A stretch of DNA of 64,000 nt, taken from positions 1,364,001 through 1,428,000 of the forward strand of contig NZ_CP135922.1 of the NCBI RefSeq assembly GCF_032399705.1, in the 5' to 3' direction. Below are positions 28,725-61,840 of the stretch, in pieces. Made by a program: the position numbers and the translations under genes. The notes under the pieces are model-generated. The model had not been told where the DNA came from. It was given only the letters and a program-made list of their open reading frames with translations, and did no database searches. The number at the start of each line of letters is the position of its first letter. Positions within the stretch are counted from its first letter, which is position 1. Source of the DNA: Paenibacillus sp. BIC5C1. GTDB lineage: Bacteria > Bacillota > Bacilli > Paenibacillales > Paenibacillaceae.

Positions 28725-28857
28725 CCCGTTCCGGATTCGGATCGTTCTTTTGATCGCTGTTATTCCCGGATTTCCTTTTTCATTTTCTAAAGGGAGAAAT
28801 CCGGGGATAAAGGCGAACGCTTCGCTTCTTCAGAATCGATTCCGTCTCCTTCACTAC
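28725..28857 (-). repeat. Structured repeat family, copy 1
   Basis: Read on the minus strand it begins GTAGTGAAGGAGACGG and ends GATCCGAATCCGGAACG. The stems TTATCCCCGG / CCGGGAATAA (core) and GGAATCGATTCT / AGAACGATCC (outer, two bulged A) are intact. It lies upstream of xre on the same strand, on the far side of its promoter. Confidence 0.8.
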
Positions 28858-29433
28858 GTATGCACGTGAACATACATCTAGCCCATCGTCCAAAACGGAG
28901 TAGCTTCTTTATAAAAATCAAATGACTTATACGAGGATCTTTAATTATCTGTACTATATCGTATATATACCATTAGGTAAAGGGATATGAAACAATTATG
29001 CCAAAAGGTAAAGAAAATGAGAGCGCGGGTTTTATTTTATAGTTAAAACGACCCAAAATGGAGGTTTACGCCGATCCCCAGAAAGTGGTATCCTCAAATA
29101 GAAATACGAACAAAATACGAACAAAATGTAAAGCTGAGACAAGTTGGATGAGTGAGAAATGAATTATTTCTGCTTCATAGCTGACTTAAATTGATTCCAA
29201 AAGGCAACAGAAAAAACTTGAAAAATGCCGTTACTATTTCAGAGAACTGGATAACTCTAATAAAAGGAGTAGTTTGTATTAATCCAAAAAGCGGTTCAAA
29301 TCAGCAATAGGTAGATCGAAAAGCTTCTATTCGTCTATTTATTGTACCCGCAAGCGACTGGAACCGAATAATACAAAATACTAAAGATGAGATGAATGCG
29401 AGTTTAACTGACCCTTTAAGGAGGAGAATGAAT
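28858..29433. other. AT-rich gap before arpU, with tandem 11-bp repeats
   Basis: No gene is seen. AATACGAACAA is repeated twice head to tail at 29103-29124, and CGAAC also forms half of a Bacillus LexA box, but no full CGAAC-N4-GTTCG site is present. The repeats may be a regulator site for the arpU transcript. Confidence 0.4.
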
Positions 29434-29916
29434 ATGGAACTGATGCTGCCCGAATTGGACCGACGCAAAACGCAGACTGCTGTTGAAGCCGCGCTGGAAA
29501 AATACCGGATTTATAAAACGATTGCTTTTGAGGAACGAGAGGTAATGGTGACGGCGAGTTACGCTGAGCGATTCCATGGTGCAACGAATGTGACCGGGGA
29601 TTCCACGGCCAGAACGGCAATCTATAATGTGGATGTACAGCGCGCACGTCAGGCGTACTGCGATACGATTGATTTTGTGGTATCTCGACTGAGTGAGAAG
29701 GAACGTGTACTTGTGAGAGAACGTTATCTGAAGGATGACGATGTATTTGACTATAAAGTGTATAACCATGTGTTTGACCCTCCTGTCAGCAAGGATACGT
29801 ATACGAAGATTCGGACACGTGCTTTCTATAAAATGGCGCTGGCTCTGTCGGATCGGGGCCTGATTAATATGGAGCCTTTATCTGCATCACGCAAAGAGCG
29901 AAAGAAGTTGGGCTAA
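29434..29916 (+). CDS. ArpU-family phage late transcription regulator
   Basis: This 160-residue protein matches the ArpU group of phage regulators. Its N-terminal DRRKTQTAVEAALEKYR and a sigma-factor-like C-terminal helix-turn-helix (SEKERVLVRERYL, then VSKDTYTKIRTRAFYKMAL) are typical. Such proteins switch on late genes in PBSX-like phages and satellites. ATG 29434 is best, with AAGGAGG nine bases before it. It is next to the xre-immA pair and is the likely activator of the tail operon ten kilobases away; that is inference. Confidence 0.75.
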   Translation: MELMLPELDRRKTQTAVEAALEKYRIYKTIAFEEREVMVTASYAERFHGATNVTGDSTARTAIYNVDVQRARQAYCDTIDFVVSRLSEKERVLVRERYLKDDDVFDYKVYNHVFDPPVSKDTYTKIRTRAFYKMALALSDRGLINMEPLSASRKERKKLG

Positions 29917-30011
29917 AGGGGAAGCAAGAAGTTCATCCTTTTATATCCTTCGCTGATTGTATACAATAATTGAAAACAACACTAAGGATCAGTCAAAGGA
30001 GAGGAATCCGC

Positions 30012-31682
30012 ATGACGGAACAAGCCGGAATGCAGGAGATGTACACACTGAAGACGATCGCGGAAACGCTCAACACATCCAACGACCTGAATCTGATGCT
30101 GGATACGGTACTCGGAAAGTTGTTGGAACTGACGGGATTGACTACGGGCTGGGTGTTCCTGATCGATACTCAGGGAGATTACTCCTGTGTTGCTGATTAC
30201 AGTCTGCCTCCTGCTCTGCTGCATCATGACAAGGAGCCGATGCGCTGTGGGTCTTGCTGGTGCGTGAATCGCTTCCGAGACGGGAGATTGGATAATGCCG
30301 TCAATATTATTAATTGCAAACGTCTGGAGGATGCCGTCGATCATCAATGGGGAGATACCCATGACATCACCCATCATGCAACGGTTCCGCTTCGCTCGGG
30401 GGAGAAGATGCTGGGTCTTCTGAATGTTGCTGCTCCAGGAAAAGAGCATTTCAGTGATAGTGAGCTGGCGCTTTTGCAGGCTGTAGCTTATCAGATAGGT
30501 AGTGCAATGGAGCGGATGCGATTATATAGCGCAGAGCAAAGGCGAGCGGATCTGTATGTCAGATTGGGGGAGTTCAGCCGATCGCTGGGCGTGACGGTCA
30601 ATGATTGCAACAGTGGGGACGATATGGCCAAGACGGTTGTAAAGCTGCTCGGACTACATTACGACTGGCCTTTTGCTGCACTGCTATCCCAGAAGAACGG
30701 AAGCTTTATGGTACAGGCGGCTCATGCTCATGGCAAGTCCGAAATGATATCAACATCTGGACTCTCTCCAGAGGTGGAGAATCGCATGTATCGTGTAATC
30801 GATTCTCATCGGGCTATGGTATTGTCGACAACGGATATTCAAGATGTTTCTGCCATTTGCAATAATCAGTTCTCTATGTCCGTTTTGGCTTCGGGCTTGG
30901 CTGCCCCCATCCCATTAAGTTCTCCTGGCGAAACGGCAGTACTGGTGGTTGGATTGGGCTCGGCCAATGATTTCCTTCAGGCAGATCGTGAGGTTTTCGA
31001 TGCACTCGCTGAACATATTACAGCCTCGTGGGAGAGTCTGAGACTGGTATACAAACGCCGGGAATTAACCCGACTGGAGGAACGAAACCGACTGGCTCGA
31101 GATTTGCATGATTCGGTGAACCAAATTTTGTTCTCCCTGTCCCTGACAGCCAAAGGGGCGGAGAGCATGTTAGCCGGATCACCACAGCTGCATCCCGCTG
31201 CGGAAGCGATGAAGGATATACGTTCCTTGTCACAGGAAGCATTGAAGGAAATGCGTGCCTTGATAATGCAGCTTCGTCCGGCCGATTTGGAGTCTGGTCT
31301 GCTCAGTGCATTGCAGGAATATGGTACAGGACAGGGATTGCAGGTTGTTGTACATCGGACGGGGATGCGCTCCTTGCCTCAAAGTATTGAGGAAGGCTTA
31401 TGGCGTATTGGACAGGAAGCGCTCAATAATGTACGTAAACATGCGGGAGTCCCTTCCGCTGAGATATCCCTCCAGTTAAGCGATCAGGAAGCGGCATTAA
31501 TCGTTACGGATCGCGGAAAAGGGGGAGCCAAAAGGCGTGAGACTTTGCCTTCCAATTCACTGGGTCTGTCCATCATGAGGGAACGGGCCCAATCGTTGGG
31601 CGGCAGACTTGAACTTGTGAGTTCATCCCGTAAGGGAACATCGGTAACGGTCGTCATTCCACTTCCGTCCGAATCTGTATAA
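30012..31682 (+). CDS. GAF-GAF sensor histidine kinase (NarL/YhcY type)
   Basis: This 556-residue cytoplasmic kinase has a first GAF domain (about residues 25-165), a second (about 195-345), a HisKA_3 dimer domain with the phosphorylated His in RLARDLHDSVNQ, and a HATPase_c domain (IGQEALNNVRKHAG, GLGLS-like NSLGLSIMRERA). The first GAF carries a cysteine group C79-x2-C82-x-C84-x17-C102. This recalls Staphylococcus AirS, whose GAF domain holds an iron-sulfur cluster, so redox or oxygen sensing is possible. The gene is followed 18 bp later by its response regulator. Confidence 0.85.
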   Translation: MTEQAGMQEMYTLKTIAETLNTSNDLNLMLDTVLGKLLELTGLTTGWVFLIDTQGDYSCVADYSLPPALLHHDKEPMRCGSCWCVNRFRDGRLDNAVNIINCKRLEDAVDHQWGDTHDITHHATVPLRSGEKMLGLLNVAAPGKEHFSDSELALLQAVAYQIGSAMERMRLYSAEQRRADLYVRLGEFSRSLGVTVNDCNSGDDMAKTVVKLLGLHYDWPFAALLSQKNGSFMVQAAHAHGKSEMISTSGLSPEVENRMYRVIDSHRAMVLSTTDIQDVSAICNNQFSMSVLASGLAAPIPLSSPGETAVLVVGLGSANDFLQADREVFDALAEHITASWESLRLVYKRRELTRLEERNRLARDLHDSVNQILFSLSLTAKGAESMLAGSPQLHPAAEAMKDIRSLSQEALKEMRALIMQLRPADLESGLLSALQEYGTGQGLQVVVHRTGMRSLPQSIEEGLWRIGQEALNNVRKHAGVPSAEISLQLSDQEAALIVTDRGKGGAKRRETLPSNSLGLSIMRERAQSLGGRLELVSSSRKGTSVTVVIPLPSESV

Positions 31683-31700
31683 AATCAGGGGGAAGAAGAC

Positions 31701-32423
31701 ATGCCGATTACGATTTTACTCGCTGATGACCATGCAATGGTGAGGCGCGGGTTGCACGTTTTTTTGTCCACACAACCAGATATGGACGTCGTCGGAGAAG
31801 CGTCGAACGGACAGGAAGCACTTGAACAAGCAGATCAATTGCATCCGGATGTGGTATTAATGGATCTGCATATGCCCGTGCTTGACGGGATTGAGACGGC
31901 GAGAAGGCTTCGTTCGATCTTGCCTGGAATCCGTATTATCGTACTTACGTCCTTTTCCGATCAGGATCATGTCGTACCAGCCGTACGCGCAGGAGTGAAA
32001 GGGTATCTGCTGAAAGATATTGAGCCAGAGGATCTTGCCGCTGCCATTCGTAATGTGCATGCAGGTCAGGTAGAACTTCATCCAGCGGCAGCAGGACAAT
32101 TAATGCATGTGATGGCTTCGTCTGAACTGTCGATGAATGAAGCGCATGGGCGTGCCAATCCACATACGTCTACTCGGCTTCCAGAGCAAGAGCGGGTTGG
32201 GCTGGGAAAGGAAACTTCTCATGGACCGGACATGCTCACCCGTCGGGAACGAGAGGTTCTGGGGCTGATCGCACAAGGATTGAGTAATAAGGAGATCGCC
32301 ATCAAACTAATCATTACCGAGAAAACGGTGAAAACCCATGTCAGTCATCTGTTGGACAAATTGGGACTGGCAGACCGCACGCAAGCTGCGCTTCATGCCG
32401 TTAGAAATGGTTGGGTCGTCTGA
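31701..32423 (+). CDS. NarL/LuxR-type response regulator
   Basis: This 240-residue regulator has a receiver domain (D54 in VVLMDLHMP; K near LLKDIEP) and a C-terminal LuxR helix-turn-helix (LTRREREVLGLIAQGLSNKEIA, residues ~176-236). The linker between them is unusually long and polar (about residues 140-173). It is the partner of the kinase just upstream, in the YhcYZ/AirSR class. Its targets are unknown; the next operon (FMN reductase and VOC proteins) is a candidate. Confidence 0.88.
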   Translation: MPITILLADDHAMVRRGLHVFLSTQPDMDVVGEASNGQEALEQADQLHPDVVLMDLHMPVLDGIETARRLRSILPGIRIIVLTSFSDQDHVVPAVRAGVKGYLLKDIEPEDLAAAIRNVHAGQVELHPAAAGQLMHVMASSELSMNEAHGRANPHTSTRLPEQERVGLGKETSHGPDMLTRREREVLGLIAQGLSNKEIAIKLIITEKTVKTHVSHLLDKLGLADRTQAALHAVRNGWVV

Positions 32424-32456
32424 TCCGTTCCGACATATTCTCAGACTAAAGTCGTA

Positions 32457-32487
32457 GAAACTCAACCCAAAGGTTGAGTTTTTTTGT
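32457..32487 (+). terminator. Terminator of the two-component operon
   Basis: AAACTCAACC pairs with GGTTGAGTTT around a CAAA loop, followed by seven T. Confidence 0.9.
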
Positions 32488-32605
32488 ACTGCAAGTTAAG
32501 TCTATCTGCCGACGATTCCGAGGTGTAAGCAAGGTAAGATGAAAGTAGAGAAAGTTGAATCGAAGAGATGGAATGTTTTTATAAAATCGAAGGAGAGTGA
32601 CATAG

Positions 32606-33181
32606 ATGAATATTATCATTTTGGCAGGCAGTAACCGGAAAAATGCAACCAGTACACGTTTGGGGGAATATGCCGCGGAGGTAATCAGCGGTCAGGGGCA
32701 TGAAGCCAACTTGTTCGATTTATATCAGACACCTCTCCCATTCTATGCACCGGATGAAAAACAGAATGAAGATCAGAATCTGTCAGATCTGAACAGACGG
32801 ATGCTCGCTGCAGATGCCATTATTCTGTCAACGCCAGAGTATCACGGCAGCATCAGCGGTGTACTCAAAAACGCACTGGATCACCTGAGCCAGGCTCATT
32901 TCAGTGGAAAACCGGTATTGTCCATCAGCTCAGCAGGAGGTGCGGTGGGCGTAAGTTCACTTTTGCAGCTGCAGGCAATTATTCGCAATCTGCACGGTAT
33001 TAACGCACAGGAGTGGATTTCCATTGGCGGTGCACAGCGCAGAAGATTTGAAGCAACATTTGACGGGTACGAAGAATTTGAAGGCAGTCAGGACATTGAG
33101 GATCGGATCAAACGTGTAATTGGTTCATTTTTGCACCTTGCCGAGACGTTAACTGCAGTACGGAAGCCGTCCGAGAGTTAA
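32606..33181 (+). CDS. NADPH-dependent FMN reductase
   Basis: This 191-residue flavodoxin-fold enzyme has an N-terminal phosphate loop GSNRKNATSTRL, the family signature STPEYHGSISGVLKNALDHL, and SSAGGAVG around the isoalloxazine site. It reduces FMN, quinones or azo compounds with NAD(P)H. AAGGAGAG lies ahead of the ATG. It starts a small operon with two VOC-fold genes (18 bp and then an overlap), which suggests a detoxification or redox role. Confidence 0.85.
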   Translation: MNIIILAGSNRKNATSTRLGEYAAEVISGQGHEANLFDLYQTPLPFYAPDEKQNEDQNLSDLNRRMLAADAIILSTPEYHGSISGVLKNALDHLSQAHFSGKPVLSISSAGGAVGVSSLLQLQAIIRNLHGINAQEWISIGGAQRRRFEATFDGYEEFEGSQDIEDRIKRVIGSFLHLAETLTAVRKPSES

Positions 33182-33199
33182 GAGAAAGAGGTTTTCATC

Positions 33200-33670
33200 A
33201 TGATTAAAGGCATATTTGAGACTCATCTGAACGTAACGGATCTGGAGAGATCCCATCATTTTTATGAACAGATCGTTGGATTGCAGCACGCTTATGGGCA
33301 GAAGGAACGTGGGAACTCCTTTTATTGGATTGGCGATGAAGGCAATGCGATGCTTGGACTTTGGCAAAAGGACCCTTCCGAGGTGCAGCGACAGCATTTT
33401 GCTTTTCAAGTATCGTTGGAGGATATGAAGCAAGCTGTCACTTATTTGGAGGATAAAGGGATCATGACGCATAACTTTTTGGATGATGATATTGGTGATT
33501 TGTATGTATTTGGGTGGATGCCGGCTGTGTCCGTGTATTTTACCGATCCGGATGGTCATTCCCTGGAATTTATTTCGATGCTACCGGATGAAGCGAAGCC
33601 GGAACTTGGCATGGTGCCATGGAGTGAGTGGGAGAAGATGCACGGTCGGGTGAAGGAGGACACAGCATGA
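33200..33670 (+). CDS. VOC-fold (glyoxalase/bleomycin-resistance) protein
   Basis: This 156-residue protein has two paired beta-alpha-beta-beta-beta units. Candidate metal ligands are H12 (FETHLNVTD), His in RQHFAFQV and Glu in HSLEF, the usual VOC arrangement for a metal dioxygenase, glyoxalase or thiol transferase. The phrase TDPDGHSLEFI is typical. It overlaps the next VOC gene by four bases. Confidence 0.83.
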   Translation: MIKGIFETHLNVTDLERSHHFYEQIVGLQHAYGQKERGNSFYWIGDEGNAMLGLWQKDPSEVQRQHFAFQVSLEDMKQAVTYLEDKGIMTHNFLDDDIGDLYVFGWMPAVSVYFTDPDGHSLEFISMLPDEAKPELGMVPWSEWEKMHGRVKEDTA

Positions 33671-34302
33671 TTTTTGAAGAAGTCAAATTATATACAGCGC
33701 AATTGGAAGACATCAAGTACTTTTATATCAACACTCTGGGGTTGAACATGGCTGAAGAGTCCGAGCATTCCTTCACGCTACAGATTGGATTGACGAAGAT
33801 GATATTCATGCGAAGTGAAGCAGACCAGAATCCGTTTTACCACTTCGCCTGGATGATTCCAGCGAATCGTTTTCAGGAGGCCAAAGCATGGGCAGCGGCA
33901 CGTGTCCGTCTAAGTAGGCATGAAGGTGAGGATGAGACTTATTCAACCAGTTGGAACTCGAATTCGCTCTATTTCGAAGATCCTGTCGGTAACATTCTGG
34001 AGCTGATTGCTCATCATACCGTTCTTAACGAGAGTGACCGCGCCTTTTCCGAGAAAGATCTGCTGCAGGTGTGTGAGGTGGGACTTGTCACGGAAGATGT
34101 GCTTTCTGCGGTAGATGAACTTGAGCAGATGGGATTGAAACGATGGAGAGCGATTAGTGATACCTTTGCCCCTGTTGGGGATGTGAATGGTCTGTTTATT
34201 GTGGTGAAGAAGGAGCGAACCTGGTTCTTTTCGGAGCAAAAAGCAAACATATATCCGCTGGAAGTGTCCATTCGTGAAGTCGGGAGACTTCGAATCGGCT
34301 AA
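33667..34302 (+). CDS. VOC-fold protein, second
   Basis: This 211-residue protein is longer than a simple VOC protein. The first module ends with FEDPVGNILELIAH, then comes a second, shorter module (QVCEVGLVTEDVLSAVDELEQMG). ATG 33667 is right: AAGGAGG lies six bases ahead and it overlaps the stop of the first VOC gene (ATGA). The FMN reductase and both VOC proteins are probably made together and may act on one substrate, not identifiable from sequence. Confidence 0.78.
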   Translation: MIFEEVKLYTAQLEDIKYFYINTLGLNMAEESEHSFTLQIGLTKMIFMRSEADQNPFYHFAWMIPANRFQEAKAWAAARVRLSRHEGEDETYSTSWNSNSLYFEDPVGNILELIAHHTVLNESDRAFSEKDLLQVCEVGLVTEDVLSAVDELEQMGLKRWRAISDTFAPVGDVNGLFIVVKKERTWFFSEQKANIYPLEVSIREVGRLRIG

Positions 34303-34446
34303 AATACGCGGAACAGCAGGCAAAACGGTCATATGTGCATCATTTGAATCATCTTATAGAAGTAAACGCTTTAAAAAGAGTGTTTTGCTAAAAAACTGTT
34401 GCTGGTCGAGTGTATATCAGGGTTCGCATCGATGAAGGGTGGTGGC

Positions 34447-35400
34447 ATGTTGGATCGACGTTTGTTGGAAGATGGGCTGGCTGTTATTGTGTCCAGTCGG
34501 GAGCGTACAGGAGATTTGTGGCACGCCCACTATGGGGCGGGAGCTATTGCGGCTTATTTTTGGGTGCGTGAAAATCGTCTCACTGCCCTTGCGGCAGGCA
34601 GTGTTACGGCTGAAGCAAAAGCCATGCTTCGCCAGCACGGGTTGAATGATGGCTTGACCTCCGGGAATGGAGAGGTTTTGCCAAGGGAAGAGGCCGAAGC
34701 GCGTATTACAGAAGCGCTGGATCGAACCATCGGAGAGCTGCACTGGGTTGGCCATCAGGCCATCTATGGTGCCCTTAGTTTAAAAGCCATTCGGGAATTG
34801 GATGGTTGGGGCACGGAGCATGACATGAATCAGATGGTTGAACTTATTGATTCTTTTGAACGAACCATTCCAGGTAGATCCTGGGTAAACACAACGGTGA
34901 AAGAAATTCGCAGCTTGAAGTTAAGTGAGGCAGACGGATTCCCTGATATAGAACGACCGGAACAATTGTCCCGGCTGATTCTGGATGAGCTTGGCGCATT
35001 TCGTACCATCTATCAGGCGGAAGCACATCATGATCTGATCGGCCACATGTTAACCTACGGGCATGCGCTTAATATATTATTTGAACTCGATTATCCTGCT
35101 TTGTTCCATAAAGGCATTCCGCCTTTTCTCAGGATGGTCAAAGCGCTGCGACTGAGTCGGGATGTGGATGTTGAACAGGAGATGCCAACGCTGCAATCTC
35201 CAGTTGACCGTCTGCCATTGATCCGTGCAGAACGCTCTGTTGCACTTCCACATGAACTGGAATACTGGCTCACCGACAGACGTTCCCGCGATTGGCATGG
35301 AGGTCATGTGTTCAAATTTCCATTCAGCTTCTACCATCATGCCAGAAACGGAAATTCGGTTCCGGAAAGCTGGGAAAACTTCCGCTATATTATCGCGTGA
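34447..35400 (+). CDS. Unrecognised 317-residue protein rich in histidine motifs
   Basis: I cannot assign this protein. It is soluble, mostly helical, without a signal peptide, and has several histidine clusters (LWHAHYGAG near residue 27; ELHWVGHQ; AEAHHDLIGHMLTYGHALN; WHGGHVFKFPFSFYHH near the end) that could bind metal. ATG 34447 has AAGGGTGGT six bases upstream; the frame is open from 34399 but lacks a site. It has its own terminator (35417-35451). A weak cre-like sequence (GTAAACGCTTTAAA) lies near 34357. Confidence 0.55.
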   Translation: MLDRRLLEDGLAVIVSSRERTGDLWHAHYGAGAIAAYFWVRENRLTALAAGSVTAEAKAMLRQHGLNDGLTSGNGEVLPREEAEARITEALDRTIGELHWVGHQAIYGALSLKAIRELDGWGTEHDMNQMVELIDSFERTIPGRSWVNTTVKEIRSLKLSEADGFPDIERPEQLSRLILDELGAFRTIYQAEAHHDLIGHMLTYGHALNILFELDYPALFHKGIPPFLRMVKALRLSRDVDVEQEMPTLQSPVDRLPLIRAERSVALPHELEYWLTDRRSRDWHGGHVFKFPFSFYHHARNGNSVPESWENFRYIIA

Positions 35401-35416
35401 GCAAATACTTTTAAGA

Positions 35417-35452
35417 GAGCACAGCCTGAGAAGGCTGTGTTTTTTTATCTTT
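35417..35452 (+). terminator. Hairpin terminator
   Basis: GCACAGCC pairs with GGCTGTGT around TGAGAA and is followed by seven T, 17 bp after the preceding stop. Confidence 0.88.
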
Positions 35453-35639
35453 TTAACGGGACCAGATTTCAAGGATAAACAGGATCAGAATGACTCTGGA
35501 TACCAGCATTCGTGGTAATTAATCGACCCTTGCGTGGGTGTAGAGTTAATTTCACATTAAACAGACATTTAACCGCCATGATGGCGACAACAAATAGACG
35601 TAATCCATACGGATCACCGTCAGCACGACCGATTTAAAC

Positions 35640-35746
35640 ATGTAAGATTGTATTATCGGATCAGTAGCAAGTGACATATCCCGATAAGCACATACGCTAA
35701 TGTACATGCCGGCCAAGGGCCGGTTTTTTTATGCGGTGATTGCACC
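35640..35746 (+). repeat. Hairpin-terminator leader, copy 1
   Basis: This ~100-bp unit recurs at 39780-39882. Order: GTAAGATT, hairpin TATCGG...CCGATA enclosing the conserved GATCAGTAGCAA, hairpin ACAT-ACGCTA-ATGT, then a terminator GGCC-AAGG-GGCC-like (CCGGCC/GGCCGG) with seven T, and a shared TGCGGTGA after it. It looks like a regulated leader or a small terminated RNA. Between 35453 and 35639 nothing else is seen. Confidence 0.65.
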
Positions 35747-35788
35747 CCTGCTCTGATCGGGTACTAAAGAAAGACCGAATATATCATT

Positions 35789-35974
35789 ATAAGTTGAATT
35801 TAATTTTTACACCAAAACGGAGAGTGCAGAACCAATCTGAAGAAGCGAAGTGTTCGCCTTTAGCGCCGGATTTTACCCTTGAACTAAGGGATCAAGAAAA
35901 TCTGGGGATAAGAGCGATCGGAAGATGGTACTGCAATCGCAGTGACAAGGTGTAACATCTCTAGTTCAACTTAT
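35789..35974 (+). repeat. Structured repeat family, copy 2
   Basis: This copy has perfect 10-bp terminal inverted repeats (ATAAGTTGAA / TTCAACTTAT), then TTACACC / GGTGTAA, then TGCAG-ACCA-TCT pairing with AGATGGT-CTGCA, and the common core ending GGGGATAAGAGCGATCGG. The outer stem sequence differs from other copies but pairs. It ends 21 bp before the DUF4127 gene, same strand. Confidence 0.85.
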
Positions 35975-35994
35975 CTAACAGGAGGTTTTAGGAT

Positions 35995-37848: not shown

Positions 37849-38005
37849 TCTATTTTTTTATTTGTGTTTTAGGAAGTGAAATGTGGCGAGTCTCATAAAT
37901 ATACTCCGCATTGGTCAGTCCATCGTTTAGAAAGATAGGATGTTATCTTCTGTATGATATGATCAGATATTTAGGAATTAATTCATTTCTTTTGTTTAAA
38001 TTAAT

Positions 38006-42818: not shown

Positions 42819-42877
42819 GATTGTGTAGAAGAGAAGATCGGTTATTAGATTGACTAAAAATTATTTGAGCTGGTGTT

Positions 42878-43026
42878 TTACACGATAACGGAGAGGGCAG
42901 AAAAAATCTGGAGAAACAAAGTGCTCGCCTTTATCACCGGATTTTCCCTTTTGAAAAGAGGATCAATAAAATCTGGGGATAACAGCGATCGGAAGATTGT
43001 TCTGCCCGCGGAGTTATACCGTGTAA
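42878..43026 (+). repeat. Structured repeat family, copy 3 (between sheath and tube genes)
   Basis: Ends pair as TTACACG / CGTGTAA, then GGGCAGAA / TTCTGCCC and AATCT / AGATT; the core TTATCACCGG / CTGGGGATAA follows. The outer stem is different from the other copies but complete. It separates sheath and tube genes, which normally adjoin in PBSX-type operons. Confidence 0.85.
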
Positions 43027-51710: not shown

Positions 51711-51738
51711 GTAATTACTTGAAAAGTGAAGTATCCTG

Positions 51739-52557: not shown

Positions 52558-52630
52558 GTGCTCAGTATTCATATAAATGTGCTTTTTAGCAAGATAGGGA
52601 GCAAATATTTGAATCGATAATCTGATCCAT

Positions 52631-52781
52631 TGGCTACAAGTAGTGAAGGAGACGGAATCGATTCTGAAGAAGCGGTAGCGGTCGCCTTTGTCTCCGAATT
52701 TCAAACCTTTAAAAAATAAATTGAGAAATTTGGAGACAACAGCGATCGGAAGAACGATCCGTATCTGGAACGGTCACGTAT
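52631..52781 (+). repeat. Structured repeat family, copy 4 (between holin and lysozyme)
   Basis: Starts GTAGTGAAGGAGACGG-type (TAGTGAAGGAGACGGAATCG) and ends CGATCCGTATCTGGAACGG. Core helix is TTGTCTCC / GGAGACAA. This is the G-C variant of the TTATC/GATAA pair seen in copies 1, 3 and 5. Upstream of the lysozyme, same strand. Confidence 0.85.
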
Positions 52782-52999
52782 GCAATCAGTATTTTTTCCT
52801 TAGTGAGTTATGAATACTTAGTAGTCTATCGACAGCACCGACATTGAGTACGAAGCCGTTTGACAGCAATTTGGGACATAACCCATAGCCGTCCGGACTT
52901 ACCTTTTACCAACATCAGGACACGCACACAAGCAACTCCAGATCCCAAAGCATTAACTATATACAAACGGCAATTTGCCGCATAAAGGGTGTGAGAAAC

Positions 53000-53947: not shown

Positions 53948-54000
53948 GCCTGACCTAACTTAGAATATAAGTTGGACCCGGTTATAAAAGAAAGAACACA

Positions 54001-54047
54001 ACAAGGGACACACGACGCATTTTGTCGAATAGTGTTCCTTTTTTGTG
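54001..54047 (+). terminator. Terminator of the tail operon
   Basis: AAGGGACAC pairs with GTGTTCCTT, with CGAC/GTCG inside, and six T follow. It lies 53 bp after the lysozyme stop. Confidence 0.85.
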
Positions 54048-54764
54048 TTTTATGTAAATGATATTAACATATATAATAAAGTTAAAGACTTATGTCCGTA
54101 AATCTCTTGTCTAATTGATGAATGTGATGTAAAGTAAGTTACACGAAATCGATTTTTACCACTGTTTATTTACATAATCCTCCTCATCATGACAAGACTT
54201 TAACATCGAAAGTTATTGTAATGTCTCCCTGTTGTAAAATCCAACATCTCTAGATCAATTTCACAACGTATTGAAACAATCCAATCCAACCTGATTGAGA
54301 AACCATTAAATTTTACTGTTTACCAACTTTCTGTTCCAGCTAATTACCATCATTAGACTTTGCCAATAACACTTTAGCCATGACGTTTAACTCCAAGTCA
54401 AACCTTAAGCCAAACCCCATGCCAAACAACACTACCGTTCTCTCTAAATCAGCCTTTTAAGCCGCCACTAAGTCGGTACCATTCTACTGTTGCTTATTGA
54501 CCTAAGTTCAATTATTACGCAACAACTACAGGCATTTATAACTCATAACCTCATCCAAAAAAACTAACAAAATGTGTGCGGTTACATCCCGTTTTACATT
54601 TCATATATAAATACGCTTTGACTTATCCAGATTTACATGACAGGTATCAAAGGCATCTAAAGCCTTTCATATGATACAAAGCACCAAACCGATCGATTGT
54701 AATCATTGGAGTTTTTTCACGCCAGTAGCACACACATTATGAGACAGGGAAGGGTGTTGTACGT
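54048..54764. other. Long AT-rich leader region of the peptide-transporter operon
   Basis: No ORF with a ribosome site is seen in ~700 bp. A TATATAAAT -10-like stretch near 54604, a TTGACT at about 54615 and an ATCA-AGGC / GCCT-GAT inverted repeat (54648-54677) precede the SBP gene. A weak cre-like TGTGTGCGGTTACA near 54572 matches 12 of 14 positions. Confidence 0.4.
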
Positions 54765-56423
54765 ATGCGAATGAGAAAAAAATGGTTATCCGGGGTCATG
54801 GCTATGGCCATGAGCACAGTGTTGATTCTGTCGGGCTGCTCCAGCACGAGTAACGAAGGTACAGGCAATTCCCCCGCTCCGGCGGAAGGTAGTGAGCCTC
54901 CGGCAGAAGTGGCCGCACAGGATACGATGATAATGGGACGTGGCGGAGATTCCGTAGCGCTGGACCCGGCAATCGTTACCGATGGGGAGTCGCTGAAGAT
55001 TGGACATCAGGTTTTCGACTCATTGCTGGACTACAAAGAAGGTGGAACCGAGGTTGTTCCGGGACTGGCTGAGAGTTGGGAGATTTCGGCGGATGGACTT
55101 AAGTATGACTTCAAGCTGAAGTCCGGCGTGAAATTCCACGATGGTACTGATTTCAACGCAGAGGCTGTGGTGTTCAACTTCAATCGATGGAGTGACCCGG
55201 CCAGTGAATATAAATTTGAGGGAGATTCCTTCGACTATTATGACTCCATGTTTGGTCCGGAAGACGGACGCGTGATCAAGGAAGTGAAGGCGATTGACGA
55301 GACAACGGTCGAGTTCACCCTGAACCAGCCACAAGCACCTTTCCTGCAAAACATTGCGATGACGCCATTTGGCATTGCAAGTCCAACTGCGATTCAGGAG
55401 AAAAAAGAGAATTTCAAGAGCGAGCCAGTAGGCACAGGCCCATTTGTATTCAAAGAGTGGAAGCGGAACGACTCCATCACTCTGGAGAAGAATCCGAATT
55501 ACTGGAAAGAGGGACTGCCGAAGCTGAACAAAGTGATCGTGCGCTCCATTCCGGATAACACGGCTCGCTTCAATGCGCTGCAAAACGGCGAGATTGATAT
55601 CATGGAAGACCTGAACCCGGATGATCTTTCTATCCTTGAAGGAAATAGCGAGCTGCAAAAAATCGAGCGTCCACCATTTAACGTGTCATACATTGGTTTC
55701 AACTTTAAGAAAAAACCGTTTGATAACGTGAAAGTAAGACAAGCCCTCAACCATGCGGTAAACAAGCAGGGCATTATCGATGCTTTCTTTGCGGGACAAG
55801 CGCAGGCAGCGGTAAACCCGATGCCGCCAACGCTTTGGGGGTATAACGACAGTATTGAGGACTATGCTTACGATCTGGAAAAAGCAAAAGCATTACTTGC
55901 CGAAGCTGGCTATCCTGATGGATTGCCTGACCCGGTAACGTTCTACGCAATGCCGGTATCCCGACCGTATATGCCTGACGGCAAGAAGGTAGCCGAAGCG
56001 ATCCAGGCCGATTTTGAGAAAATCGGAGTGACCGTAAACATCGAATCACCAGAATGGGCAACGTATCTGGATGATGCCAAAGCCGGGGTGAAAGATGACA
56101 TTTACATGCTCGGCTGGACTGGCGATAACGGTGACCCGGATAACTTCCTGTACACGCTGCTCGATAAGGATGCGATCCCGGGTAACAACCGCAGCTTCTA
56201 CGTCAACGAAGAATTGCATACGTTGCTGACGAGTGCGCAGAAAGAAACGGATCAGGACAAACGTGCGGAATTCTACAAGCAGGCGCAAGTGATTATTAAG
56301 GAAGATGCTCCATGGATTCCACTGGTGCACACCACTCCTATTTTGGCTGGTAAAGCGAACCTGAAAGATTTCGTACCGTCCCCATTGGGCACGGAATCCT
56401 ATGCCAATGCTTATTTTGAATAA
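54765..56423 (+). CDS. Peptide/nickel ABC transporter substrate-binding lipoprotein (family 5)
   Basis: This 552-residue protein has lipobox LSGC at Cys-25, an acidic/Pro linker and the family-5 fold (LDPAIVTDGESLKIGHQVFDSLLDY; VPGLAESWEISADGLKY; ALNHAVNKQGI). It brings dipeptides or oligopeptides to the DppB/DppC permeases that follow. Its spacing pattern (EWATYLDDAKAGVKDDIYMLGWTGDNGDPDN) is closest to DppE-like binding proteins. Confidence 0.88.
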   Translation: MRMRKKWLSGVMAMAMSTVLILSGCSSTSNEGTGNSPAPAEGSEPPAEVAAQDTMIMGRGGDSVALDPAIVTDGESLKIGHQVFDSLLDYKEGGTEVVPGLAESWEISADGLKYDFKLKSGVKFHDGTDFNAEAVVFNFNRWSDPASEYKFEGDSFDYYDSMFGPEDGRVIKEVKAIDETTVEFTLNQPQAPFLQNIAMTPFGIASPTAIQEKKENFKSEPVGTGPFVFKEWKRNDSITLEKNPNYWKEGLPKLNKVIVRSIPDNTARFNALQNGEIDIMEDLNPDDLSILEGNSELQKIERPPFNVSYIGFNFKKKPFDNVKVRQALNHAVNKQGIIDAFFAGQAQAAVNPMPPTLWGYNDSIEDYAYDLEKAKALLAEAGYPDGLPDPVTFYAMPVSRPYMPDGKKVAEAIQADFEKIGVTVNIESPEWATYLDDAKAGVKDDIYMLGWTGDNGDPDNFLYTLLDKDAIPGNNRSFYVNEELHTLLTSAQKETDQDKRAEFYKQAQVIIKEDAPWIPLVHTTPILAGKANLKDFVPSPLGTESYANAYFE

Positions 56424-56468
56424 CTTATATATGAGCTGAATTTAGTACTAAATAGGATCCATTAGTTC

Positions 56469-56554
56469 AAAGCGCTGGCGTACACGCAATGCTTGGCAGA
56501 ACCCACATCAGGATGTAACGATCTAAAGCATGCATGTCTGCCAGCGCTTTTTAT
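56469..56554 (+). terminator. Attenuator between binding protein and permease
   Basis: AAAGCGCTGGCG pairs with TGCCAGCGCTTT across a ~60-nt loop, followed by TTATA. As in the sugar operon, it would lower permease output relative to the binding protein. Confidence 0.6.
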
Positions 56555-56578
56555 ACGTTAAAGGCAGGTGAATGAGGA

Positions 56579-57583
56579 GTGAACAGTTACATCGTCAAAC
56601 GTGTACTCGTGTTACTGCCCGTGCTGCTGGGCATGACCCTGATCGTCTTTTCCATTATCCACGCCATTCCGGGTGATCCGGCCGAGACCATACTCGGGCA
56701 AAAGGCAACCGAACAATCCAAGCAAGCTCTGCGTGACCAGCTCGGACTGGACAAACCATGGTTTCAACAATATTTCGCTTATCTGGGCGACCTGTTTAAG
56801 GGAGATCTGGGCACATCCATCCGCACCAAGGTTCCCATTGCCCAGGAAATTGTGCCATATCTGACAGCGACCCTCGAATTAACGATGGCGAGTATGCTGT
56901 TTGCGATCATTATTGGCGTGAATGCCGGGATTGTCAGTGCGTGGAAACATAACTCGTGGTTCGATTACTGCTGCATGGTCATTGCATTGGTGGGCGTGTC
57001 GATGCCGATTTTCTGGCTCGGGTTGATGGAACAGTGGCTGTTTGCGAACAAACTGCACTGGCTGCCGTCCATCGGCAGAATGAATGCGCGAGATCCGATC
57101 GAAGCCATTACGGGCTTGTATGTGTTGGATACGATGATTGCCGGACGATGGGATCAGCTGTGGACAGTAACAAAACATTTGCTGCTGCCAAGTATAGCAC
57201 TCGGCACGATTCCGATGGCCGTTATTGCCCGGATGACGCGTTCCAGCATGCTCGAAGTAATGAGTTCGGATTATATCCGAACCGCGAAGGCGAAAGGACT
57301 CGGCCCGTTTTTCGTCGTATATGGACATGCGTTGAAAAATGCGTTTATTCCCGTGCTCACCGTCATCGGCATACAGACCGGATCTTTGCTGGGTGGAGCC
57401 GTGCTGACCGAAACGATCTTTGCTTGGCCTGGTGTTGGGCGCTATATATATGAAGCAATTAGTTCGAGGGATTATCCGGTGATCCAAAGCGGCATTCTGA
57501 TCGTGGCATTCTTCTTCGTAGTGATCAACCTGATTGTGGACTTGCTGTACGCCGTATTCGATCCGCGTATTAGTTATAAATGA
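56579..57583 (+). CDS. Peptide ABC transporter permease, DppB type
   Basis: This 334-residue permease has six membrane spans, with the family motifs IPGDPAETILGQKA near the N-terminus and DYIRTAKAKGLGPFFVVYGHALKNA as the EAA loop. GTG at 56579 follows AGGTGAATGAGGA. It pairs with DppC 24 bp downstream; no ATPase genes follow. Confidence 0.88.
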   Translation: MNSYIVKRVLVLLPVLLGMTLIVFSIIHAIPGDPAETILGQKATEQSKQALRDQLGLDKPWFQQYFAYLGDLFKGDLGTSIRTKVPIAQEIVPYLTATLELTMASMLFAIIIGVNAGIVSAWKHNSWFDYCCMVIALVGVSMPIFWLGLMEQWLFANKLHWLPSIGRMNARDPIEAITGLYVLDTMIAGRWDQLWTVTKHLLLPSIALGTIPMAVIARMTRSSMLEVMSSDYIRTAKAKGLGPFFVVYGHALKNAFIPVLTVIGIQTGSLLGGAVLTETIFAWPGVGRYIYEAISSRDYPVIQSGILIVAFFFVVINLIVDLLYAVFDPRISYK

Positions 57584-57607
57584 GTATGAACAGAAGGGAG
57601 ACGCCGC

Positions 57608-58507
57608 ATGGCCAAATTATCGACTAATACCGGAGCATCTATTGACGCCGCGTCAGCACGTGCATCAGGTCCATGGCGGGAAGCCTGGAGAACGTTTCGG
57701 AAAAATCGGCTTGCGCTGGCAGGCTTGATCATTATCGTTTTTTTCATCCTATTGGCCTTTGCTGCCCCGTACATTGCCCCGTATGATTACAAAGAGCAGG
57801 TACTCACGGATCGTCTGCAAGCCCCTTCGGCAGAGCATTGGTTCGGTACCGATGATCTCGGGCGTGACGTATTCTCCAGAGTGCTGCATGGAGCGCGCAT
57901 TTCATTGTGGGTTGGTTTCTTCTCTGTTATTGGCTCTATTATTGCGGGGGCTTTGCTTGGTCTGATTGCCGGATATTATGGAAAATGGGCAGACATGCTC
58001 ATCTCACGTTTGTTCGATATCTTGCTCGCTTTCCCGGCGATACTACTGGCAATTGCCATTGTGGCGATTCTTGGCCCGTCCTTGCAAAATGCATTACTCG
58101 CGATAGCGATCGTGAACATCCCGACCTACGGACGACTAGTGCGTTCAAGGGTACTTAGCTTGAGACAGGAGGAATTCATTACATCAGCACGTACGCTGGG
58201 GGCTGGCAATATGCGAATTCTGTTCCGGCACATCTTGCCCAATAGTCTCACCCCGCTCATCGTTCAAGGCACACTGGGGATTGGAACAGCGATTATTGAA
58301 GCGGCTGCGCTCGGATTTCTCGGCATGGGGGCCCAACCACCTGACCCGGAATGGGGCAAAATGCTGTCGGATTCCCGCCAGTTTCTGCAAAAAGCACCGT
58401 GGACGCTTATTTTCCCAGGACTCTCTATCATGTTCACCGTGCTTGGTTTCAACTTGTTGGGCGACGGCCTGCGCGATACCCTTGATCCAAAGATGGCCAA
58501 AAAATAG
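57608..58507 (+). CDS. Peptide ABC transporter permease, DppC type
   Basis: This 299-residue permease has the N-terminal RTFRKNRLALAGL, an FGTDDLGRDVFSRVLHGARISL loop and an EAA loop FITSARTLGAGNMRILFRHILPN. It ends with the DppC tail LGFNLLGDGLRDTLDPK. It completes the channel; the usual dppD/dppF ATPases are not in the window, so shared ATPases or a distant operon must power it. Confidence 0.9.
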   Translation: MAKLSTNTGASIDAASARASGPWREAWRTFRKNRLALAGLIIIVFFILLAFAAPYIAPYDYKEQVLTDRLQAPSAEHWFGTDDLGRDVFSRVLHGARISLWVGFFSVIGSIIAGALLGLIAGYYGKWADMLISRLFDILLAFPAILLAIAIVAILGPSLQNALLAIAIVNIPTYGRLVRSRVLSLRQEEFITSARTLGAGNMRILFRHILPNSLTPLIVQGTLGIGTAIIEAAALGFLGMGAQPPDPEWGKMLSDSRQFLQKAPWTLIFPGLSIMFTVLGFNLLGDGLRDTLDPKMAKK

Positions 58508-58566
58508 AGGCTTGAAGTTTGCTTCACTATTTTTATCTCTAACTACGTCTTCGTCGTTGTTCCAAC

Positions 58567-58765
58567 TCTAACGAATCTCGTAGGCCTTATTTTTTTCCGC
58601 CAATATCGCAATTTAACGAACTTCACACGCGCTATTTGGTGATAAATAATCTTGCGATTGGGCCCAAAATGTTGGTCAATGGGGAACAATAACGTGTCTA
58701 CGATTCGTTAAGGTATGTAAACCTTTTAAAAAGGCCGATTAACGTCTGTGCGGTTCGTTAGAGTA
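58567..58765. repeat. Four-armed palindromic repeat, copy 2
   Basis: TAACGAATC (58569-58577) and GATTCGTTA (58702-58710) with a further GGTTCGTTAG 50 bp on and TTTAACGAAC on the left, plus CGCTATTTGG-TGATAA in the centre, correspond to the unit at 10855-11055. No gene is visible. Confidence 0.55.
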
Positions 58766-59040
58766 TGTCCTGTCACTGTTGCCGAAGACGGTCAACCAGC
58801 GCGTCAGTCTCTGCACAGCAAGACGGAAGATACTTCAAGATTTGAGACACGTCTGATGTGAATGTTGTAATAATAGACACTGGACCTACATCTCACACAT
58901 ATTTCAATCTTTCCTAATGCCGGTTCGAACTTTGGTTCGAGTCGGCTTTTGTATTGCATGATGTATTGAGCTAAAATGGGTAGAGATGCGCAAAACTTAA
59001 AGTGTTACTCGATGATTTTGTTAAAATAACCGCCATCGTA

Positions 59041-59108
59041 TTGACACCCAATTTTCCCATATGTTATATAAAAGGAAGGGTTTAGCACTCCGGTCATCAG
59101 AGTGCTAA
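59041..59108 (+). promoter_or_regulatory. Promoter and CIRCE (HrcA) operator
   Basis: TTGACA (59041-59046) and TATATA (59065-59070) form a promoter. TTAGCACTC (59082-59090) - nine bases - GAGTGCTAA (59100-59108) is an exact CIRCE element at the start of the transcript, the binding site of the heat-shock repressor HrcA. The next gene in the same direction is htpG, 505 bp later. Confidence 0.92.
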
Positions 59109-59214
59109 CAAATGATGTTTTTACTACACGACTACATATGGAATGATTGGTTTTTTGAATATGGATTAAGTTAACTTTGAATAGGACATGCAGAGCTAAG
59201 GAGACACAATAAAC

Positions 59215-59289
59215 TTGAAGAAGCGGCTCTCCACGTTTAACAACAGATTCACTTCATTGATGATCTCAATCCTAAAAATCAGTTCCTGA
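59215..59289 (+). CDS. Possible leader peptide in the htpG leader
   Basis: After AAGGAGA, a TTG opens a 24-codon frame (LKKRLSTFNNRFTSLMISIL...) that stops at 59289. It resembles the first residues of a sensor-kinase gene, so it may be a decayed start rather than a working leader peptide. Confidence 0.25.
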   Translation: MKKRLSTFNNRFTSLMISILKISS

Positions 59290-59295
59290 TCAGAT

Positions 59296-59444
59296 GCAAA
59301 AGTAGTGGAGGGGACGAAATCGATTTGGAGGAAGCGAAGCGTTCGCCTTTATCACTGAATTTCTCCCTTTTTAAAAAGGGATCAAAGAAATTCGGGGATA
59401 ACAGCGATCCGAAAAACGATTCGTAACCGGAACGGCTACATTGC
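59296..59444 (+). repeat. Structured repeat family, copy 5 (htpG leader)
   Basis: GCAAAAGTAG pairs with CTACATTGC, then CGAA-TCG-TTT with AAACGATTCG, then the core TTATCACTGA / TTCGGGGATAA. Compared with copy 6 the third pair of the outer stem changes from G-C to A-T on both sides. It lies between the CIRCE promoter and htpG on the same strand. Confidence 0.85.
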
Positions 59445-59613
59445 AGAACGTCATGCACTTATTTCTACAATGAGTCATTAGAGTCAATCACAATATCTGT
59501 GGACCAGCGCGATTAAAGGTTTTGGAGTCTACTAATCGCCCAAGGATTATTTCAGTTACTTTCTATATTTAACCAAATCATTCTATACCCAATTTGAAAG
59601 GAGACACCCATTC

Positions 59614-61494
59614 ATGGCTAAAAAAGAATTCCAGGCTGAATCCAAACGCTTGCTGGATATGATGATCAACTCCATTTACACCCAAAGAGAAATCTTCTTG
59701 AGAGAACTGATCTCCAACTCCAGTGACGCCATTGACAAAATATATTACAAAGCACTGACTGACGATACACTCGTTTTCAACAAAGAGGACTACTACATCA
59801 AGCTTACCATCGACAAAGAAAACCGTACGCTTACGCTCACTGATACAGGAATCGGGATGACCCAGGAAGAGCTGGAGAACAATCTGGGAGTTATCGCGAA
59901 GAGCGGCTCGCTGGCGTTCAAGAAAGAGAATGAAGCCAAAGACGGCCACAACATCATTGGACAATTCGGGGTTGGTTTCTACTCCGCATTTATGGTGGCA
60001 GACAAGCTGGCGGTAACGAGTAAAACGTTGGGCAGCGACGAAGCATGGAAATGGGAATCCGAAGGTGCGGATGGGTACACGATCTCGCCAGCCGAGAAAG
60101 ATTCCGTGGGTACGGAAATCGTCCTGACGATCAAACAAAATACCGAAGAAGATTCGTATGACGAATTTTTGGAAGAGTACCGCTTGAGATCCATCATCAA
60201 GAAATACTCCGACTTCATTCGTTACCCAATCAAGATGGATGTGACAGGTCAGCGTGCAAAAGAGGGTACGGAGAACGAATTCGAAGAGTACAAAGAAGAG
60301 CAAACCGTGAACAGCATGGTGCCGATCTGGCGTAAAAATAAAAGCGAACTGACCGAAGAAGATTACAACAACTTCTATATGGAAAAACGCTACGGTTTTG
60401 ACAAACCGCTCAAACACCTGCACATCAGCGCAGATGGCGCAGTGGTATATAATGCGATCCTGTTTATCCCGGAGAACACACCATTCGATTATTATACAAA
60501 AGAGTATGAAAAAGGGCTTGAACTGTACTCTAACGGTGTATTGATCATGGACAAATGCGGTGATTTGCTGCCAGATTACTTTGGATTTGTAAAAGGTATG
60601 GTGGACTCGGAAGATCTGTCCCTGAACATCTCCCGTGAAATGCTGCAACACGATCGTCAGCTCAGCCTGATCGCGAAGAACATCAAGAACAAAATCAAGA
60701 GCCAACTGCAAAGCTTGCTCAAGGACGAGCGTGAGAATTACGAGAAGTTCTATCAAGCGTTTGGCCGTCAGTTGAAGTATGGTGTATACAGCGACTATGG
60801 CGTGAACAAGGACACTCTGCAGGATCTGCTTTTGTTCTCTTCTTCCAAGGAGAAAAAGCTGGTTAGCCTGGACGAGTACGTTTCCAGAATGCCTGAAGAT
60901 CAGAAGTACATCTACTACGCATCCGGTGAATCCATTGAACGAATTGAGAAGCTGCCACAGATCGAGGGTGTACTCGACAAAGGTTATGAAGTATTGTACT
61001 TCACCGATGACATCGATGAGTTTGCAATCAAGATGATCACAAACTACAAAGAGAAAGAATTCAAATCTATCTCCAGCGGTGATCTGGGCATCGAGGACAG
61101 TACAGACAAAGAAGAAACAGACGCACAGGACAACGACAACAAAGAGTTGTTCGAAGCGATGCAAGCACAGCTTGGCGGCAAAGTAAAAGCTGTTAAAGCT
61201 TCCAAACGCCTGAGAAGCCATCCGGTATGTTTGTCCACCGAAGGTGAGCTGACGATTGAGATGGAGAAAATCCTGAAAGCCATGCCGAACAGCGAAAATG
61301 TACAGGCAGACAAAGTGCTGGAGATCAACGTAAATCACGATGTCTTCAAATCCCTGAAAGACGCATTTGCACAGGATAAAGAGAAATTGAGCCTGTACAC
61401 AAGCTTGCTGTATCATCAAGCACTGCTGATCGAAGGACTGCCGATTCAAGACCCGGTAGAGTTCACCAACGATATCTGCAAAGTTATGGTTTAA
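59614..61494 (+). CDS. htpG: Hsp90-family chaperone HtpG
   Basis: This 626-residue ATP-dependent chaperone has the N-terminal GHKL ATPase domain (E31 and N35 in [19 protein letters not shown]78 in [19 protein letters not shown] lid), the middle domain ([24 protein letters not shown]) and the C-terminal dimer domain. A Glu/Asp-rich stretch (about residues 495-515) precedes the C-terminal domain. AAAGGAGA precedes its ATG. Transcription probably starts at the CIRCE promoter, so control by HrcA is predicted. In B. subtilis htpG is not an HrcA gene. Confidence 0.97.
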
Positions 61495-61513
61495 CCTAAC
61501 CCACTATCTCCAC

Positions 61514-61546
61514 CCGACAGGGCATTTGCCCTGTCGGTTTTTTTAT
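61514..61546 (+). terminator. htpG terminator
   Basis: CCGACAGGGC pairs with GCCCTGTCGG around ATTT, followed by eight T. Confidence 0.95.
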
Positions 61547-61691
61547 TTTTACCTCATTACCCATACAGGGAGGGGATGGGGAAGACAGACTATCATATCA
61601 TCAAATTTCATATGGTATTTTTATAAGTTGAACTTGATATTTACTGTTTTTTCGCGAGAAAATGGTGAATACCATTATTGTATTTATGGAC

Positions 61692-61840
61692 AGCCGAAAG
61701 TAGTGAAGGGGACGGAATCGATTCTGAAGAAGCGAAGCGGTCGCCTTTGTCTCTGGGTTTTCCCCTTTAAAAAGGGAATTCAGAAAACCTGGAGACAACA
61801 GCGATCGGAAGAACGATCCGTAACCGGAACGGCTACTACG
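61692..61840 (+). repeat. Structured repeat family, copy 6 (before dgt)
   Basis: The outer stem is CGGA-TCG-TTCT / AGAACGATCCG with two bulged A, the core is TTGTCTCTGG / CTGGAGACAA and the tip AGGG/CCCT-like. An outer TATTTAC / GTAAATA pair (about 61645 and 61888) may extend it, and ATAAGTTGAA as in copy 2 lies near 61622. It sits upstream of dgt, same strand, with a promoter between. Confidence 0.85.

Follow-up and report, generated by a model that had tools for sequence, protein, structure and literature searches.

We describe here a family of structured repeats met in a 64,000-nucleotide stretch of Paenibacillus sp. BIC5C1 (NCBI RefSeq assembly GCF_032399705.1, contig NZ_CP135922.1, positions 1,364,001 to 1,428,000; genome G000 below), which we call the window and in whose positions coordinates are given. 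Six copies lie in it, each reading in the same direction as the gene that follows. Pfam and NCBIfam identify these six genes as a first-pass annotation, made from the letters alone, had named them: an HTH_3 regulator on the minus strand (28197-28640), with the core of copy 1 ending 76 nucleotides (nt) before its start, a DUF4127 gene starting 40 nt past the core of copy 2, a phage tail-tube gene 36 nt past copy 3, a GH25 lysozyme gene 218 nt past copy 4, htpG 169 nt past copy 5, and a dGTPase gene 242 nt past copy 6. The features are set out below with their scores under R1, a covariance model of 153 positions and 44 pairs derived from A3, an alignment of 72 copies from this genome; because the six window copies are among the 72, their scores of 132.9-149.8 bits are partly so by construction.

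About 28679-28913 (core 28717-28869), minus strand: copy 1, B-type, with inverted arms; outer ends read by eye; 134.2 bits.
About 35788-35974 (core 35802-35954), plus strand: copy 2, A-type, with terminal inverted repeats; 140 bits.
42873-43025, plus strand: core of copy 3, A-type; 149.8 bits.
42916-42922, plus strand: P2 mini-hairpin RCGNAGY of copy 3, here ACAAAGT; helix 5 of the covariation table.
42925-42988, plus strand: P3 hairpin of copy 3, with TCGC/GCGA, an internal loop, and TTATCACCGGATTTT paired with the 3' arm; from helices 6 and 7 and the model alignment.
52628-52781, plus strand: core of copy 4, B-type; 132.9 bits.
59290-59444, plus strand: core of copy 5, B-type; 142.8 bits.
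61688-61841, plus strand: core of copy 6, B-type; 147.7 bits.
8548-8690, plus strand: a GC-rich distant relative without P2, ahead of a GH43 gene (8779-9759); 45.7 bits, expectation value (E) 2.4e-9 over 84 kb.

The six copies align along their whole length as one family, as the first-pass annotation had proposed. A DNA search with copy 3 alone gives at least 40 matches on the 7.08-Mb chromosome, which is a single contig, copy 3 itself included (40 of 116 candidates scored), the best non-self match having E 1.1e-44. With R1, at least 101 copies are found at E <= 2.1e-7, a lower bound because 150 of 2486 first-look candidates were scored, the weaker hits, reverse-strand self-matches among them, being dropped. 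The repeat family is not a chance product. The earlier remark that no known RNA or repeat family could be named for it stands as regards Rfam 15: in the window the gathering score of an Rfam family is nowhere reached, and scans at relaxed thresholds, covering copy 3, eight loci with divergent copies, and the 8.2-8.8 kb region, return only weak, unrelated hits (E >= 0.28). In the open-licence Paenibacillus literature on miniature inverted-repeat transposable elements (MITEs), interspersed or palindromic repeats, structured RNA motifs, and small RNAs, we did not find the family described. A link to the thiamine pyrophosphate riboswitch, by way of a GAUAA/UUAUC pair in a Paenibacillus paper (PMC5670726), was considered and set aside, as nothing supports it.

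The fold that covaries is a three-way junction with an optional module of about 39 nt. Its long outer stem, P1, is interrupted by purine-rich internal loops; P2 is the mini-hairpin RCGNAGY with a GNA or GNNA loop; and P3 has TCGC/GCGA at its base, followed by a small internal loop and then TTATCnCCGGATTTT paired with the 3' arm. Among the 72 copies of A3, the outer pair of P2 is G-C in 60, A-U in 8, G-U in 2, and unpaired in 2, and the variable pair of TTRTC/GAYAA is A-U in 58, G-C in 13, and G-U in 1. The joint change of TTRTC and GAYAA that had been picked out in the window copies is therefore real, and so is the compensation reported for the outer stem. The GCGAAnnnTTCGC hairpin of the same first-pass annotation fares differently, since its GCGAA/TTCGC pairing keeps its sequence but shows both-sided change in none of its five pairs; it was rejected as a conserved pair set, and the covarying fold uses the RCGNAGY hairpin and TCGC/GCGA instead.

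Over A3 as a whole, 35 of the 44 pairs show both-sided change, and the proportion of paired cells is 91.6%, against 82.2% in shuffled alignments and 31-47% in slid structures. For a comparison across families, A4 brings together 61 matches, 59 of them distinct, from four families; it is fitted to the model and includes one reverse-strand and one deleted row. In it both-sided change is present in 40 of 44 pairs and 93.5% of cells are paired against 69.2% when shuffled, and slid structures covary little. While the stems vary, unpaired stretches surrounding the junction are conserved across genera. Moreover, on the sense strand G-U combinations outnumber A-C combinations, both in the BIC5C1 genome (123 versus 58 cells over all 44 pairs; 42 versus 23 in pairs that are at least 80% Watson-Crick) and across genera with the top pair and two rows removed (72 versus 34), the cells not being independent of one another. 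These stricter counts replace an early ratio of 111:28, which was discarded because it omitted the outer helix and owed much to a few columns. An excess of G-U over A-C favours a sense single-stranded RNA (or sense single-stranded DNA) over a DNA cruciform. Selection on structure, most simply as RNA, had been suggested from the six copies, and we regard it as strongly supported by the cross-family covariation, by this excess, and by compensation in place at two loci described below.

The covariance model and genome search that the first-pass annotation had put forward as a check reveal a family spread through the order Paenibacillales. R1 finds matches in 104 of 149 genomes, comprising 27 of 27 genomes of the genus itself, 34 of the 36 listed for its family, and 43 genomes of other families; 25 matchless genomes of the order are absent from the itemised list. 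In a class-wide sample, model R2 matches 24 of 250 genomes, 22 of them from the own family, and a pattern scan places 80 of 80 loci among the matches listed in Paenibacillus. Outside the order, two genomes from other families of the class, G190 and G330, have two weak model matches each (E 6.2e-10 and 9.2e-7).

We re-searched 26 low-copy genomes, scoring 117 candidates in each; ten of these form part of one genus, g30, and have one to four matches apiece (an eleventh g30 genome, G096, with 17 matches, was left out). Nine of the ten carry a copy between ilvC and leuA (eight genomes), between citZ and icd (seven genomes), or at both sites, in sense and 43-52 nt before the start codon, the loci being named by NCBIfam for one example of each and by protein identity or N-terminus for the rest. 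Compensatory change is found in 10 of 44 pairs in the ilvC>leuA set (A7, eight genomes) and likewise in 10 of 44 in the citZ>icd set (A8, seven genomes), a level reached by 0 of 500 shuffles in either case. Element identity at ilvC>leuA is 0.85, compared with 0.93 and 0.87 for the coding flanks and 0.82 for the 5' spacer; at citZ>icd it is 0.83, compared with 0.91 and 0.94 for the flanks and 0.73 for the spacer. Because few donor copies are detected in g30, gene conversion is an unlikely source of these changes, and selection on the fold in place is the simplest reading. The element has thus persisted at two loci, with in-place compensation, in one low-copy genus. In Bacillus subtilis, the ilv-leu mRNA is processed near ilvC.

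Placement was examined with genes from our own codon-based caller, not the public annotation, so that distances may err where small genes were missed. The first-pass annotation had the element always facing the next gene, which is true of the six window copies and of 87 of 101 copies genome-wide. Between co-directional genes the count is 76 sense versus 8 antisense (p 5e-15), with a further 11 copies between divergent and 6 between convergent genes. A set from other Paenibacillus genomes, made up of 80 of the 120 stretches of the pattern scan together with L324-L367, contains 138 distinct copies, 110 of them sense and 2 without a called next gene. Sense bias is equal in the best-scoring copies (16 of 19) and the weak ones (30 of 36). 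Location in sense within an operon or leader, as seen for 76 of the 101 copies and at ilvC>leuA and citZ>icd, is not clear in the other low-copy genera (16 of 28 sense). With respect to replication, 81 of 101 copies are co-oriented, as are 316 of 393 called genes (dnaA at base 1 by our own reading); replication was rejected as the main orientation cue on the basis of lagging-strand tandem genes, where 7 copies run with the gene and 3 against it, small numbers though these are.

No copy in the BIC5C1 genome overlaps a called gene by more than 40 nt, and 46 of the 87 sense copies end 60 nt or less ahead of a start codon. Of 40 copies in tandem gaps 100 nt or longer, 16 lie within 40 nt of the start where 7.1 would be expected, a value reached in 9 of 20000 draws with arms of 27 nt assumed. 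An arm of about 27 nt within these 60 nt leaves little room for a promoter, so such copies are probably transcribed. Convergent gaps are depleted, making up 6 of 98 gaps with an element versus 22 of 152 others (p 0.04). In Paenibacillus, then, the element is strongly sense-oriented and occupies intercistronic positions or sites immediately ahead of the Shine-Dalgarno region. For copies 1 and 6, a promoter had been read between element and gene; a consensus promoter scan of the two regions sees no gene-strand site there, and the gene-strand sites it does see are upstream of the elements (28981-28953 on the minus strand for copy 1 and 61634-61663 on the plus strand for copy 6). Consensus sites in total number 1 versus 0.8 expected in the copy 1 region and 3 versus 1.2 expected in the copy 6 region. 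With no promoter seen in between, both copies may act as 5' leaders. No terminator-like site is present on the sense strand of these two regions.

The family also has the features of a mobile element. It is non-coding and intergenic, about 190-245 bp in size, and present in at least 101 copies, as is typical of a MITE. A-type copies end in terminal inverted repeats, TATAAGTTSAACTAAA, and the inverted ends TATAAGTTSAAC have TA at both ends, whereas B-type copies have GTAGTGRAGG...CGGCTAC stems and long arms that, as read by eye, are inverted but varied in sequence; outer arms differ widely among copies yet remain complementary. Comparison of sister genomes, also proposed in the first-pass annotation, uncovers both empty and filled alleles at four sites. 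The site of copy 2 (c2) is empty in G023 and G024 and filled in G022 and G025. The other three sites are all filled in G024: S1 is empty in G025, S2 is empty in G025 and G023, and S3 has a truncated element in G025 and G023 and is empty in G022 and G000. At c2 and S3 there is clearly a TA on each side of the element and one TA at the empty site, a pattern in which duplication of TA is indistinguishable from insertion of a TA-ended element without duplication; S1 and S2 are consistent with this, with small changes. Dispersal and covariation are thus combined in one family with empty sites and inverted TA ends.

Copy 1 has its site filled in five of five genomes compared, with an A-type element there in G023, and orthologues of copy 3 are 91-92% identical in G022-G025, those of copies 5 and 6 in G025 being 86% and 90% identical. 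Between matching flanks G025 has no copy 4, and adjoining sequence is also missing. Copies 1 (three of four sister genomes), 3 (four of four), and 6 (G025) have identities of 90-94%, equal to or above most of their flanks (78-90%), and copy 2 has 79-80% in the sister genomes where it is present. In a sample of 32 copies from G034 and G016, 12 have flanking genes in common with a G000 copy. The notion that shared sites usually hold a different element was rejected upon alignment, which shows several to be the same insertion with gain or loss of the module, or with a nested copy. In 27 of the 101 matches the length is at least 185 nt. Of these, 15 belong to A3, where the nature of the extra length was read: it is the module of about 39 nt, with hairpins of its own, in one of two positions. 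Orthologous sites differ in whether they have the module, as c2 does between G022 and G025 and as 407280, 4275093, and 6535338 do relative to loci of other genomes. In two of nine aligned shared-site pairs, the P3 loop of a B-type copy carries a nested A-type copy (L353 and L325, G016).

A few further arrangements were noted. Ahead of pcrA, L329 and G000:6268779 share an insertion point and a nearly identical coding flank with elements 77% identical, reflecting either replacement or very fast evolution of the arms. At L266 and L164, pairs of elements bracket one ordinary gene, like composite units without a transposase. Three near-identical tandem copies with about 260 bp spacing (82-83 bits, GC 64-66%) precede the gene of a 136-aa protein at G000:C1:755504-756168 (L156). 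The GC-rich relative at 8548-8690 is preceded, at about 8300-8400, by a similar repeat without the central hairpin, and the counterpart of the 8300-8700 region in sister G025 has three tandem full copies (L203:507-1238). A phage origin was rejected, as a search of phage records gives no match; the matches among plasmid records are two Paenibacillus cellulosilyticus records, and E. coli genomes have no match to an A-type copy.

Taken together, these findings lead us to favour, tentatively, the view that this is an order-wide, MITE-like repeat family selected as a cis-acting RNA, probably a module for mRNA processing or stability. The element would be transcribed together with its neighbours and tolerated, at some sites kept, through its action in cis as RNA. 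Once transcribed, it would fold into a long hairpin broken by interruptions, whose conserved internal-loop core an endoribonuclease or RNA-binding protein may recognise. Recognition would then cut or shield the message, separating the fate of the downstream cistron from that of the upstream part, while the next Shine-Dalgarno region would stay free. Ten chosen host genes (eno, purC, purS, argB, carA, fabZ, glyA, sdhB, efp, and pcrA) belong to glycolysis, purine, arginine/pyrimidine, and fatty-acid synthesis, one-carbon metabolism, the tricarboxylic acid cycle, translation, and DNA repair; spanning at least seven pathways, with purC and purS common to one, they are not functionally coherent. 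Because hosts are in so many pathways, a general role in mRNA fits better than a sensor of a single metabolite. A further proposal, conceivable but doubtful, is that the family is a transposable cis-regulatory RNA, one module on a MITE-like vehicle that would have been planted upstream of start codons across the order, exchanging its domain of about 39 nt, imposing the same processing or translational control on each host gene, and becoming fixed in the ilvC-leuA and citZ-icd operons.

Several observations weigh against a role as a cis-acting RNA. Transcription of the element within mRNA, its cleavage, and its effect on expression are predictions from sequence. Of the 101 copies here, 14 are antisense to the next gene, as are 26 of the 138 from other Paenibacillus genomes. 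Outside g30, low-copy genera show a weak bias: the 28 loci inspected are divided into 16 sense and 12 antisense, and several of the sense loci are one site in related genomes (three in g12; mnmE in two g20 genomes). An ilvC/leuA copy with the module in G060 (L378) runs opposite to both genes, unlike those of g30, and in one g30 genome, G111, the two copies inspected out of four lie at neither conserved locus. Further pair types in A7 are no higher than in shuffles (451 of 500 as high); in A8 the paired cells amount to 85.7%, helix 1 to 43%, and one model pair never forms. A4, A7, and A8 are all fitted to the model, with changes common to related species, and the G-U excess in the BIC5C1 genome is a modest one if near-invariant G-U columns are disregarded. 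The first-pass annotation had called for strand to be tabulated; given the 16:12 division, strong sense bias is shown within Paenibacillus and at the g30 loci but not order-wide, and it may be younger than the fold.

This weak bias elsewhere makes a plain parasite a serious rival, albeit an unlikely one. The family would then be a palindromic transposon remnant whose fold has no host function and whose bias reflects purging of antisense or otherwise disruptive insertions, as its TA-bounded inverted ends, empty sites, nested copies, and high copy number in Paenibacillus would suggest. A MITE with an orientation bias had been among the first suggestions, and in part this was right; random orientation along with clean empty sites had been named as the mark of a plain MITE, and of the two we find the empty sites, within Paenibacillus. 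A parasite would be expected between convergent genes, as tabulated for BOX and RUP (PMC3049150, Table 1, within the extract of that paper), where our family is instead depleted. It would also not be expected to keep its fold across the order, with compensation in place in genomes that have one to three detected copies. Orientation, convergent depletion, and single-locus compensation in g30 thus make a plain parasite a poor fit in Paenibacillus. In addition, no matching transposase was found: PF13358, searched for as the mark of an IS630 partner, is present in 0 of nine genomes, a search that did not extend to other transposases, reverse transcriptases, or other movers, and among 17 listed terminal inverted repeat pairs 300-4000 bp apart in 2.1 Mb, overlapping loci included, the open reading frames at the four distant pairs read are ordinary genes with no transposase by eye, giving no autonomous element with the same ends.

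Alternatively, the core may bind a ligand or global regulator and set translation or transcription of the next gene, as a riboswitch or protein-binding leader of a real regulon. The leader-like position of a conserved structure, the unpaired junction motifs conserved across genera, and the tandem triplets ahead of one gene are in keeping with such a role, which we nonetheless consider improbable given the scatter of the ten host genes over pathways, the lack of sense-strand terminator-like sites in the two regions scanned, the many copies at short distance between co-directional genes, and the differences in sites between close species. Very improbable, in our estimation, is RNA-mediated mobility akin to that of short interspersed nuclear elements, in which the folded sense RNA would move, or be recognised by a mover, and insert in sense into transcripts by mechanism. 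It would account jointly for sense bias, transcript location, and RNA-level structure, for a bias no weaker in the best-scoring copies, and for the lack of a DDE_3 partner in nine genomes, whereas the TA-flanked inverted ends resemble DNA transposition and antisense copies do occur, commonly so in some other genera. Least probable of all is that template switching in a quasi-palindrome, or gene conversion, keeps the arms complementary by mutation and not selection, for although outer arms differ widely yet pair, and one site can hold an A-type element in one species and a B-type element in another, core motifs that do not pair are conserved from family to family, G-U exceeds A-C where correction would give perfect pairs, slid structures show little covariation, and changes occur in place where few donor copies are detected.

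The cis-acting RNA that we favour has likenesses among known repeats. REP/BIME and ERIC elements are enterobacterial, and Correia/NEMIS elements of Neisseria have a TA target and two length classes; we know of no order-wide three-way-junction RNA among the latter, and the likeness to them is drawn by description. As characterised in the excerpt of PMC2649163, Correia/NEMIS elements combine inverted repeats with a conserved core, as does our family, and show RNase III binding or cleavage near genes. REP/BIME and ERIC are similarly elements of operon spacers that alter transcription or mRNA cleavage, ERIC in an orientation-dependent manner (PMC3049150, in extract). The same extract presents BOX and RUP of Streptococcus pneumoniae as MITE-like and tightly folded with paired terminal inverted repeats, the ends of RUP resembling IS630-Spn1 and BOX being modular (PMC3049150). 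They are there enriched between convergent genes and read as parasites; the Paenibacillus family, depleted at such positions in G000, is set apart from them by description, and by its strong sense orientation and the absence of an IS630 partner in nine genomes. Of bcr1-bcr18 in the Bacillus cereus group, the passages of PMC3446304 consulted treat bcr1-bcr3 as MITE-like and bcr10 and bcr18 as predicted RNA elements. Like our family, bcr repeats are short and interspersed, with MITE-like members in untranslated regions (UTRs) or operon spacers and others structured in 5' UTRs; unlike it, their MITE-like and predicted-RNA families are separate, as far as those passages describe them, where the Paenibacillus family is both (PMC3446304).

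MITEs in bacteria are usually taken for parasites, and structured leader RNAs for regulators that stay in place; this family appears to be both. The novelty is that one family is a MITE-like mover and a conserved sense-strand RNA at once, combining known kinds. Its hundreds of natural insertions, together with empty-site controls, amount to a natural experiment in how mobile DNA builds post-transcriptional regulation. The covariance model is usable to annotate a large, uncatalogued RNA family in the order, and the family may account for unusual leaders and operon spacers in Paenibacillus strains that are widely used.

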